Assembly (NCBI RefSeq): GCF_001971785.1
Contig: NZ_CP019389.1
Span: forward strand, 3,297,001 to 3,361,000
Length of the DNA: 64,000 nucleotides
Reading direction: 5' to 3'
Origin: Seonamhaeicola sp. S2-3
GTDB lineage: Bacteria; Bacteroidota; Bacteroidia; Flavobacteriales; Flavobacteriaceae
Shown here: one piece after another, positions 45,178-62,607 of the stretch
Layout of the letters: each line of letters opens with the position of its first letter
Position numbering within the stretch: the first letter of the stretch is position 1
Notes under the pieces: generated by a model
What the model was told of the DNA's origin: nothing
The model's database searches: none
What the model saw: only the letters and a program-made list of their open reading frames with translations
Position numbers and translations under genes: made by a program

Positions 45178-45300
45178 GTTTTATTATTCAAATTATTTTA
45201 TGATAAATTCTAACTTTTTTTGTGTTAATTTTAATTATTTTTTAGAATTTAATTACTTTAAAAAAATTATTTGTAATTTGTTTTTAATAACCAGCAAACC

Positions 45301-58677: not shown

Positions 58678-59676
58678 ATGACCGAATATCAACTCAAAAT
58701 CTTAAAAGGCAAACAAGTACTTATTACAGGAGGCGCAGGTTTTATTGGCTCCAATTTATGTGAAACACTACTAGACAATAATATTAAGGTTGTTTGTTTA
58801 GATAATTTCTCAACAGGAAAACGAGAAAACATAGCTCCTTTTATTAAATTGAAGAACTTCAAACTAATTGAAGGCGATATTAGAAACTTAACCGATTGTA
58901 ATAAAGCTTGTGAAAACACAGACTATGTATTGCACCAAGCCGCTTTAGGTTCTGTGCCAAGATCAATTAATGATCCTATAACAACTAATGATGTTAATGT
59001 TTCTGGGTTTTTAAACATGTTGGTGGCTGCTAGAGATGCTGGTGTTAAACGCTTTGTTTATGCTGCCAGTTCTTCTACATACGGAGACCACAAAGCTTTA
59101 CCCAAAGTAGAAGACGTTATAGGAAAACCGCTTTCACCATACGCCATTACAAAATATGTTAATGAATTATATGCCGATATTTTTCATAGTACATACAACC
59201 TAGATACTATAGGATTGCGATACTTTAATGTGTTTGGACGCAGACAAGACCCTAACGGTGCTTACGCTGCAGTAATCCCTAAATTTGTTCAACAATTGGT
59301 TAAGCATGAATCACCATACATTAATGGAGATGGCTCGTACTCAAGAGATTTTACCTATATAGATAATGTGGTACAAATGAACTTAAAAGCCATTACTACT
59401 GAAAATAAAGATAGTTTAAATCAAGTATACAACGTAGCTTACGGCGAAAGAACAACGCTGCTAGAACTCACCAACTTACTTAAAGAATATTTATCAGAGT
59501 TTGATCCAGAAATTAAAAATGTTGAAGTAAAACACAGAGACAACAGAGCTGGAGATATTCCACACTCTTTAGCCTCTATAGATAAAGCCAAAAAACTTCT
59601 AAACTACAATCCTAAATACAGTGTTAGCGAAGGCTTAAAAGAAGCTGTTACTTGGTATTGGGAAAATTTAAAATAA
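58678..59676 (+). CDS. UDP-N-acetylglucosamine 4-epimerase (WbpP/TviC-like)
   Basis: The 332-residue extended SDR protein has [19 protein letters not shown] for [42 protein letters not shown] with the catalytic Ser, [13 protein letters not shown] with the catalytic Tyr/Lys, and [20 protein letters not shown]. The GSVPRSI and [14 protein letters not shown] motifs are typical of WbpP/TviC epimerases that interconvert UDP-GlcNAc or UDP-GlcNAcA with the galacto form. It precedes the matching dehydrogenase by 5 nt. Confidence 0.93.
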
Positions 59677-59681
59677 AAAAA

Positions 59682-61055
59682 ATGAATCAAATTAATGATA
59701 TAAAAATAGCAGTTATTGGTTTAGGATATGTGGGATTACCACTTGCTAGACTTTTTGCTACTAAATATGCTGTTGTAGGATATGATATTAATCAATCTAG
59801 AGTTGAAGAATTAATGAGTGGTCATGATTCAACATTAGAAGTTGATGAAAACGAATTAAAATCTGTACTAACTCAAGATACAGATAACAACATTGGATTA
59901 TTTTGTTCAACAGATATTGAAGCTATTAAAGATTGTAATTACTATATTATTACAGTACCTACTCCAATAGATAAAAATAACAGACCAGACTTAACACCAC
60001 TATACAAATCAAGTGAAACCGTAGGTAAAGTGCTTAAAAAAGGTGATATCGTTATATACGAATCAACCGTTTACCCTGGCGTTACTGAAGATGAATGTGT
60101 ACCCGTTTTAGAAAAAGAAAGCGGTCTTAAATTTAATACAGATTTTTATGCCGGATATTCACCTGAAAGAATTAATCCGGGTGATAAATTACATACCGTA
60201 GATAAAATTCTTAAAGTCACTGCTGGTTCTACACCTGAAATTGGTAAAAAAGTAGATGCACTATATGCAAGCGTTATTACAGCAGGCACTCACTTAGCAC
60301 CTACCATTAAAGTAGCCGAAGCAGCAAAAGTTATTGAAAATTCGCAACGCGATATTAATATTGCTTTTGTTAATGAATTAGCTAAAATTTTTAATCGTTT
60401 AGATATTGACACCCATGATGTTTTGGCTGCTGCTGGAACTAAATGGAACTTTTTACCCTTTAAACCAGGACTAGTTGGTGGGCACTGTATTGGTGTAGAC
60501 CCGTATTATTTAGCCCAAAAAGCGCAAGAAGTTGGTTATCACCCCGAAATAATTTTAGCAGGAAGACGTGTTAATGATGGTATGGGGCAATACGTAGCCT
60601 CAGAAATTATTAAACTCATGCTTCAAAACGATTTAAAAGTAAAAGGAAGCAATATATTAGCTTTAGGAATTACTTTTAAAGAAAATTGTCCAGATGTAAG
60701 AAATACTAAAGCGGTTGATGTTATTGAAGAACTAAAAAGCTATGGTGCCAATGTTACGGTATATGACCCTTGGGCAAACCCTGAAGAGGTAATGCATGAA
60801 TATGGCTTAAAAACCATTCAAAAACTCAGTCACGCTGAGCCTGTCGAAGCGCACGCTGAGCCTGTCGATAGTCATCCTGAGCTTGTCGAAGAACATCCTG
60901 AGCCTGTCGAAGGACAAACCAAATACGACGCTATTGTACTAACAGTAGCTCATAAAGAATTTCTTCAAATAGATTTAAAATCATTGCTAAACCCTAAAGG
61001 CATTTTATATGATGTCAAAGGAGTTATAAGTGAACCCGTTAGCGGTAGATTATAA
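59682..61055 (+). CDS. UDP-N-acetylglucosamine 6-dehydrogenase (TviB/WbpO-like) with in-frame repeat insertion
   Basis: From the ATG at 59682 the protein is 457 residues. It starts with [18 protein letters not shown] for NAD binding, then [35 protein letters not shown] and the catalytic Cys in [15 protein letters not shown]. It ends with the C-terminal UDP-binding domain ([32 protein letters not shown]). It oxidises UDP-GlcNAc to the uronic acid; with the upstream epimerase it makes UDP-GalNAcA. Residues 384-411 are four 7-residue repeats of the form H(A/P)E(P/L)V(E/D)x encoded by 60831-60914. The protein is about 28 residues longer than usual for this reason. An earlier in-frame start at 59652 lies in the epimerase gene and is unlikely. 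Confidence 0.92.
60831..60914 (+). repeat. Four tandem 21-nt GC-rich repeats inside the dehydrogenase gene
   Basis: Units start at 60831, 60852, 60873 and 60894. All contain CTGAGCCTGTCGA or a one-base variant (GAGCTTGTCGA in unit 3). This is the common bacterial interspersed element CTTCGACAGGCTCAG read from the other strand. It is much richer in GC than the surrounding gene. Its length (84 nt) is a multiple of three, so the frame is kept. Confidence 0.93.
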
Positions 61056-61081: not shown

Positions 61082-62607
61082 TTGAGCCAATTAAAAAAAG
61101 GAGCGGCATTAAACTACATAACCATATTTTTAACAAATGCGGTTGGTTTATTTATAACACCATTCATATTAAACCATATTGGTAAATCTGAATACGGTAT
61201 TTACACTACCATAGGAGCTCTTATTGGTACTATTTCATTACTAGATTTGGGACTCAATAATACAGTTGTTCGCTTTGTTGCTAAATATAAAGCAGAAAAA
61301 GATCGTAAGGGTGAAGAAAATTTCCTAGCTACCACCATGATTATTTATGGTATTATCTCAGTACTTGTTATAATTATAGGCGTAGCTTTCTACGGTCATA
61401 TAGACAACTACTTTACAAAAATGAATGCTGAAGAAATAGAAATAGCTAAAACTATTTTTATTCTATTAATTTTTAATCTAGTAATTAATTTACCAGGAGG
61501 AACTCTTAGAGGTGTTTGTTTTGGGTATGAAAAATTTGTTTTCCCTAAAACAGTAAATATTATTCGTTATATACTTAGAACAATAACAATTGTTGCGGTA
61601 CTCTCTTTAGGGGGAAAGCTATAGCTTTGGTAATTGTAGATACCGTATTTAACATACTAATTATTATTGTTGGAATTTACTATGTTTTTTTCAAACTAAA
61701 AGTACGCTTTAAACTTCATGAATTTAAATTAAAATACTTAAAGCAAATATTTGGCTACTCTGTATGGATTTTTGTGTTTGGTCTAGTAAGTATGCTTCAG
61801 TGGAAAGCTGGTCATTGGATTTTAGGGCGTATAGCCACGCCTGAAATTCTTACAATTTATGGTATTGGTATCACTTTAGGAACATATTATGGTTCTTTTT
61901 CAACAGCAATTTCTAGCGTATTTTTACCACGAGCAACAAAAATGACTGTTGCAAATGCTACCAATACAGAGCTAACAAACATGATGATTAAAATTGGGCG
62001 TATATCATTTGTTATTCTTATGTACATTTTTGGAGCCTTTTTACTGTTTGGAAATCAATTTGTGTTTTTGTGGGTAGGAAAAGAGCTTGGTGTAGATGGT
62101 AGTTTTGAAGTTTGGCTCATTGCCATATTAATTATGATAGCATATACACTACCTCTTGTGCAAGGCTTTGGCAACTCAATTTTAGAAGCAAGAAATAAAT
62201 TATCTTTTAAGGCTATTTTATATCTATCATTTTTAATACTAGGAGCCATATTTGGAGCTTATTTAGCTAAAAATCTTGGTGCATTAGGTATGATTTGCGG
62301 AACGGTTTCTGGGTGGTTCATTGTTCAAAATGTCATGAATTTTTATTACCATAAAGTTATAGGCTTAAATATTTTAAGATTTTTCAAAGAACTCTCCCAT
62401 AAAACAATCATCACAATAATTATCGTTATCTGCTTAGGATATTTAACTAATTACATTCCTGGTAATGGCTGGATTAACTTTATTATTAAAGCTATTTCCT
62501 ATTCTATCATTTATGCAGTGTTAATATATAATTTTGGGTTTATTAATTATGAAAAAGAGTTGTTTAAAAGCTCTCTAAATCCAATCTTAAAAAAATTAAA
62601 GTTATAA
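61082..62607 (+). pseudogene. wzx: Wzx-type oligosaccharide flippase split by a frameshift in a G5 run
   Basis: Two adjacent frames encode one polysaccharide flippase. The N-terminal part (61082-61624, starting at TTG, MSQLKKGAALNYITIFLTN) ends at a TAG just after ...VLSLGGKL. The second frame, upstream of its ATG-like start, reads ...KAIALVIVDTVFNILIII. Adding one G to the run at 61610-61614 would join them as LSLGGKAIALVIVDTV, a continuous helix. With that correction the protein has about 12-14 membrane spans and about 508 residues, as expected for Wzx/MATE-like flippases that move lipid-linked repeat units across the inner membrane. It may be a phase-variable homopolymer, a real null allele or a sequencing error. 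Confidence 0.85.

Follow-up and report, generated by a model that had tools for sequence, protein, structure and literature searches.

A short palindromic element that mostly lies between genes is present as four tandem, in-frame copies within a UDP-sugar 6-dehydrogenase gene of Seonamhaeicola sp. S2-3 (genome G000), in the 64,000-nucleotide stretch of DNA analysed here (the window). The history that we consider probable has several steps. A REP-like hairpin element with a (T)GTCA tag would have entered, as one copy and in frame, a loop of the C-terminal domain of the enzyme. The array would then have grown head to tail by 21-nt steps, the enzyme staying translatable because each step adds whole codons (21 is divisible by three) and no stop interrupts the unit in this frame. 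Two lineages of the genus would have come to share the insert, probably through homologous recombination of a short tract in a glycan locus, and units would have been gained or lost; its translated product would be a tolerated passenger.

The host gene (59682-61055, forward strand) encodes a TviB-like protein of 457 aa with N-terminal, central and UDP-binding domains all present (Pfam PF03721, PF00984, PF03720). It scores 396.9 bits with the subfamily model TIGR03026 (cut-off 189.8); the best NCBIfam equivalog, TviB NF011729, scores 543 bits, under its cut-off of 592, and this match stops at residue 381, directly ahead of the insert. Solved relatives found by sequence include 4r16 and Cap5O (3ojl), and a structure-model search confirmed the enzyme family with a TM of about 0.4, from a poor query model on which the placement of the insert is not based. 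The preceding gene (58678-59676, forward strand) encodes a TviC-like UDP-sugar 4-epimerase, a probable pathway partner judging by its best match (NCBIfam NF011728, 416 bits, under the cut-off of 760). The dehydrogenase of the congener G006 sits in an equivalent locus, five upstream neighbours matching genes of the window at 64-84%, and in the congener G001 six upstream neighbours match at 76-88%. On the 3' side of the dehydrogenase, a MATE/flippase-like gene (61082-62607; weak model matches, below cut-offs) is split into two ORFs of 180 and 326 aa in different frames; its counterparts are single ORFs of 501 aa in G006 and 423 aa in G001, and the gene looks broken in S2-3.

The preliminary description had proposed that four 21-nt units encode a 28-residue insert in the C-terminal domain, and this is borne out: the array occupies 60831-60914 with the frame unbroken, one reading frame translating all units as four heptads, and alignment with homologues places it as a 28-column insertion in the C-terminal UDP-binding domain. 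Copies of the core CTGAGCYTGTCGA start at 60835, 60856, 60877 and 60898, a spacing of exactly 21 nt; these four are the matches in the window with at most one mismatch, and 100 shuffles of the window gave none. Tandem Repeats Finder assigns period 21 to 60831-60912 and period 42 to 60828-60910. All on the forward strand, the units are (i) CACGCTGAGCCTGTCGAAGCG at 60831-60851, its first two bases overlapped by a GTCA tag and its stem pairs intact; (ii) CACGCTGAGCCTGTCGATAGT at 60852-60872, with the stem pairs lost; (iii) CATCCTGAGCTTGTCGAAGAA at 60873-60893, likewise overlapped by GTCA in its first two bases and with one of four stem pairs lost; and (iv) CATCCTGAGCCTGTCGAAGGA at 60894-60914, with stem pairs intact. 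They differ from one another at 2 to 7 of 21 positions, units 3 and 4 being the closest pair (19/21 identical), and the array is open in four of six frames. A systematic difference noted earlier also stands, units 1-2 reading CACGC where units 3-4 read CATCC. Elsewhere in the window, an AT-rich 21-nt tandem repeat of 2.8 copies (45186-45243) is unrelated to the array in sequence.

Tandem repeats are prone to mis-assembly, and an assembly or annotation artefact had been raised as a possibility. We regard it as very improbable: the genome is one contig, the frame is open over the whole gene, the units have diverged, and another assembly, that of G006, holds a homologous insert.

The element consists of a (T)GTCA tag followed by NNCT-GAGCYTGTCGA-AGNN, where the middle GAGCYTGTCGA is fixed. 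The 25 exact copies of the core in S2-3 fall at five places: the dehydrogenase (four copies), three intergenic arrays on contig C1 at 301 kb (five copies), 325 kb (ten) and 3566 kb (five), and a single copy at 631 kb near the start of another ORF (L046:1501-1513; G000:C1:631083). The earlier picture of a dispersed palindromic repeat that lies mostly between genes and is expanded in frame here thus holds, 20 of the 25 copies being covered by no ATG-started ORF of more than 64 aa. Looking for exact cores in other genes of this genome, as had been proposed, yields just the copy at 631 kb. That copy is in frame at codon 8 of an ORF (HsdM-like by eye) that is open for only 199 residues versus 545-547 in three homologues; it may lie upstream of the true ORF start. 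Among the other genus genomes scanned, G001 has 21 core copies, G002 has 26 and G006 has two, and G003, G004 and G005 have zero.

We surveyed 232 distinct copies from the family, a subset of those in the genomes concerned. GTCA tags 188 of them, a share inflated by the retrieval of part of the copies with a pattern that contains GTCA; in S2-3, 21 of the 25 core copies bear it. The arms were in no pattern. In the 188 GTCA-tagged copies, Watson-Crick pairing holds at arm pair -1 for 172, where shuffles reached at most 76, and at pair -2 for 178, where they reached at most 86; a first set of 71 copies gave 52 and 56 for the outer pairs versus shuffle maxima of 39 and 36. Pair -3 is Watson-Crick in 86 of the 188; covariation is invisible there because the tag fixes the 5' side. 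Pairs beyond the outer arms showed no excess over shuffles in the set of 71 copies, so GTCA looks like an unpaired tag. A tag with covarying arms is, on these alignments, the anatomy of a REP. DNA folds were no better than shuffles for five single-unit stretches (z -0.76 to +1.22) and for the whole array (z +1.68), so it is covariation that supports the hairpin and we claim no stability for it. An RNA fold of the array region with its flanks gave z -2.1, and searches of the window and of three array loci against Rfam gave no family at gathering score.

The closest described repeats are the CGTC REPs, which a 2013 study (Di Nocera, De Gregorio and Rocco; PMC3733652) presents as short palindromes with an unpaired tetranucleotide at one end, found in Bacteroidetes among other phyla and having no apparent dedicated transposase. 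According to the same study, their stems run to 8-9 pairs, the first two of them AT, their loops span 4-5 nt, their unpaired 3' tail is mostly CCA, CCTC and TGTC also serve as tag, and head-to-tail dimers are negligible (PMC3733652). The flavobacterial element shares a tag of this type at one end (TGTC in 158 and CGTC in six of the 232 copies) and the covarying stem beside it. It differs in having four pairs around a fixed 11-nt middle, in having no conserved CCA in its 3' flank (no base above 51% at positions 15 to 26), and in forming, in the dehydrogenase, a purely head-to-tail array. Because stem length and tail differ, we do not file it among the CGTC repeats despite the resemblance of its TGTC form. 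Like the GTAG REPs of the REP/RAYT system it combines a tag with a hairpin and is dispersed and often clustered, but its tag is GTCA rather than GTAG, and nothing found here supports the transposase of that system as its mover. The RAYT domain Y1_Tnp was not found in G000, G003, G004 or G006. Of 110 family genomes, 22 contain the element, 41 contain Y1_Tnp (40 over cut-off) and eight contain both, which is no association (Fisher p = 1), and none of the five genomes with at least 16 element copies has Y1_Tnp. No core copy occurs in the 5-kb regions around five Y1_Tnp loci from the genus, and two partial look-alikes, TGTCATTCTGA, occur at one of these loci (L172). A RAYT as mover was therefore set aside.

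Pairs of cores 2-14 nt apart were found 15 times, in eight of 397 family genomes, with periods (from match lengths) of 18, 21, 22, 23, 24 and 25 nt. The 21-nt step is thus one of several spacings, of which a coding position would retain those divisible by three. In seven of the eight arrays outside S2-3 (the exception is L143) all four stem pairs are present in the last unit, versus none of their 11 earlier units, a pattern suggesting that an array grows by copying the 5' portion of a unit, with strand slippage as one conceivable mechanism. In a separate case, G011 (L215:2570-3043) has seven element copies between its own UDP-sugar dehydrogenase and the next ORF (SDR-like by eye), the stretch beginning about 25 nt past the dehydrogenase stop.

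Copies within coding sequence are not confined to this enzyme. Among the 232 copies, 21 are internal to an ORF of at least 150 aa with at least 25 residues on each side, and five of these are in the dehydrogenases of S2-3 and G006. Three of the other 16, in L242 (MutS), L237 (an ArgC-like semialdehyde dehydrogenase) and L153 (TraB/GumN), match the core without a tag and were dropped, leaving 13 tagged GTCA or ATCA. Ten of the 13 are in proteins identified by Pfam (1e-5): a chorismate-binding enzyme and MetRS in G001; the LeuRS editing domain in G050; a PrmC-like methyltransferase in G104; MetRS, a 3-hydroxyacyl-CoA dehydrogenase and an FGAR-AT (PurL-like) protein in G109; a methylmalonyl-CoA mutase/MeaB fusion in G068; HsdM in G011; and an Mfd-like helicase in G097 (the names PurL and Mfd were assigned from Pfam domains). 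The proteins of L167, L236 and L275 had no Pfam match at 1e-5. The preliminary description had called in-frame expansion unusual; the case is real, but in-frame placement recurs in other genes of the family, and what sets this dehydrogenase apart among the internal copies is that only it has more than one exact core. In MetRS, the element occupies an identical site within the anticodon-binding domain match in G001 and G109, which belong to two genera (loci L165 and L197), and is absent from the 26 other aligned genomes, including S2-3 (MetRS was matched in 115 of 120 genomes, of which 30 became loci, three of those unaligned). Other long inserts stand at the same site in L302 and L312, and on these alignments it is an insertion hot spot.

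To place the dehydrogenase insert among homologues, 39 relatives including S2-3 were searched; 37 have a homologue, and the best matches of 30 became loci. With 80 named loci added, the best 80 of 588, the alignment has 110 rows and 109 distinct proteins, at one genome per species. Across the insert site, two rows (S2-3 and G006) are 43 residues long and the other 108 are 14-23. The insert is therefore in one of the 108 other distinct homologues, that of G006, at the identical site and likewise 28 residues long. The preliminary description had allowed that the same four units might be in every homologue of the genus; in fact two of seven genus genomes carry the insert and five lack it, some of the five homologues being only 58-76% identical and perhaps not orthologues. 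Extra length in L087, L093 and L123 was rejected as the insert, being in the N-terminal domain and of different sequence, as were eight extra residues at the insert site of L120, which are unlike the repeat. In their N-terminal domain, L087 and L093 (both Salegentibacter) have in common another inserted in-frame palindrome, TCTGAAGA...TCTTCAGA, which adjoins GAGTGGA repeats; this palindrome is single-copy per genome (at up to three mismatches) and so gives no evidence of an interspersed repeat.

The arrays of S2-3 and G006 align best at a shift of one unit. Units 1-3 of S2-3 and units 2-4 of G006 are identical at 54 of 63 positions, versus 60 of 84 in register; unit 1 of S2-3 and its counterpart, unit 2 of G006, agree at 20 of 21 positions and share the linker AAGCG, and unit 3 and its counterpart, unit 4, agree at 19 of 21 and share the linker AAGAA. 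The best match at a one-unit shift indicates that the two arrays are homologous and that units were gained or lost, probably after a single insertion. Unit turnover between the two is thereby supported. A simple two-step expansion of a dimer, suggested earlier, did not stand: G006 has three of the units shifted by one, which makes the CACGC/CATCC split older than the divergence of the two arrays.

The nearest overall homologue of the S2-3 protein is that of G001, which has no insert (92% identity over residues 3-383; alignment identity 89%, versus 77% for G006), and G006 ranks 13th to 38th of 109 in all tracts away from the codons abutting the insert. This distribution, and a MetRS site that receives different inserts in different genera, would fit separate insertions of the element in S2-3 and in G006, both at one hot site. 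We find that doubtful, given the near-identity of the offset unit pairs with their common linkers and the tract upstream of the insert that the two genomes have in common. In this tract, the 20 codons abutting the insert (residues 364-383; 60771-60830, forward strand), G006 is the nearest of all homologues, with 83.3% identity versus 76.7% for the next best, and the tract is first of 390 windows of 20 codons. The insert-abutting window is top for excess S2-3/G006 identity at 15, 18, 20, 22 and 25 codons, among 380-400 windows, alone or tied with an overlapping window. The excess is small (0.04-0.07 over the next homologue), and the window is only tenth at 12 codons and, at 30, ties by one measure and is seventh by G006-minus-G001. 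G001 itself stands first or second over residues 1-120 and 241-364; it drops to 12th over residues 121-240, and to 16th and 37th past the insert, where the nearest homologue is a Flavivirga gene (L056), neither G006 nor G001. Since G001 is not nearest throughout, the dehydrogenase gene appears mosaic beyond the upstream tract as well, and the excess similarity to G006 upstream suggests short-tract recombination that carried the insert.

In the offset alignment with G006, seven of 21 insert codons differ, none synonymously, versus 167 synonymous and 87 nonsynonymous differing codons among the 427 of the rest of the gene (p = 0.0007, from few differences); in register, 14 of 28 insert codons differ, again all nonsynonymously. 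The reading frame of the insert is kept and its residues are not, and with no synonymous change among its differing codons the insert resembles a tolerated loop rather than a selected domain. AlphaFold places residues 384-411 at pLDDT below 50 between strands 378-379 (short) and 415-420 of the UDP-binding domain; the model is poor overall (mean pLDDT 64.6, pTM 0.45), so a disordered loop is tentative. Selection of the insert as an acidic loop rich in proline, with a new role in, for instance, oligomer contacts or the binding of a partner, would account for the 28 residues and open frame kept in both species and for the similar composition (HAEPVEA..., HAKPANS...), and the shared length could reflect a length constraint. 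Such selection is unlikely, given that none of the differing codons is synonymous in either alignment and that 108 of 110 rows do without the insert. The tandem units, the likeness of units 3 and 4, the unit offset between species, and the glycan locus to which the TviC-like epimerase and a nearby transaminase gene point could also be read as a contingency module, in which frequent slippage in unit number tunes the dehydrogenase and hence the surface glycan. This too we hold to be improbable: 21-nt changes keep the frame and give no on/off switch, the divergence among units lowers slippage, and the amino-acid changes look unconstrained. The altered enzyme activity or surface glycan put forward in the preliminary description thus finds no support, the codon differences being all nonsynonymous and the insert being modelled as a low-confidence loop. 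A tolerated, disordered passenger is most likely what the insert is, to judge from the codons and the predicted fold.

The kind of event is already known. Intragenic REPs are published: GTAG and CGTC REPs also occur inside ORFs, tRNA synthetases and repair genes among the hosts, and dimers or groups that encode 20-30 residues make up more than half of the intragenic REPs (PMC3733652). Rickettsia palindromic elements, too, lie in frame in unrelated genes, at about 150 bp as given in a review (PMC10969869), versus a tandem 21-nt unit in our case. One reported coding-repeat system likewise has tandem coding repeats with dyad symmetry in the DNA, but its units are 25-residue amphipathic ones in ORFs without assigned function, whereas here 7-residue Pro/Glu units lie in a conserved enzyme. 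A literature search with the repeat letters returned only an unrelated miRNA study, and one with the translated peptides no match. As far as searched, the Bacteroidota element, its pure tandem coding expansion and the unit turnover are new.

A broader and more speculative view, which we hold tentatively and would not call likely, is that the (T)GTCA element represents a further REP superfamily spread by other means than RAYTs and selected to be translatable in most frames, which would survive in conserved genes, grow there in whole codons and, as a coding module, pass from species to species through recombination of short tracts. Its presence inside tRNA synthetases and other conserved proteins offers natural tests of loop tolerance in conserved enzymes. 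Within one genus, the comparison would trace how a selfish-looking intergenic repeat may become protein sequence, through entry, whole-codon expansion, turnover and exchange.
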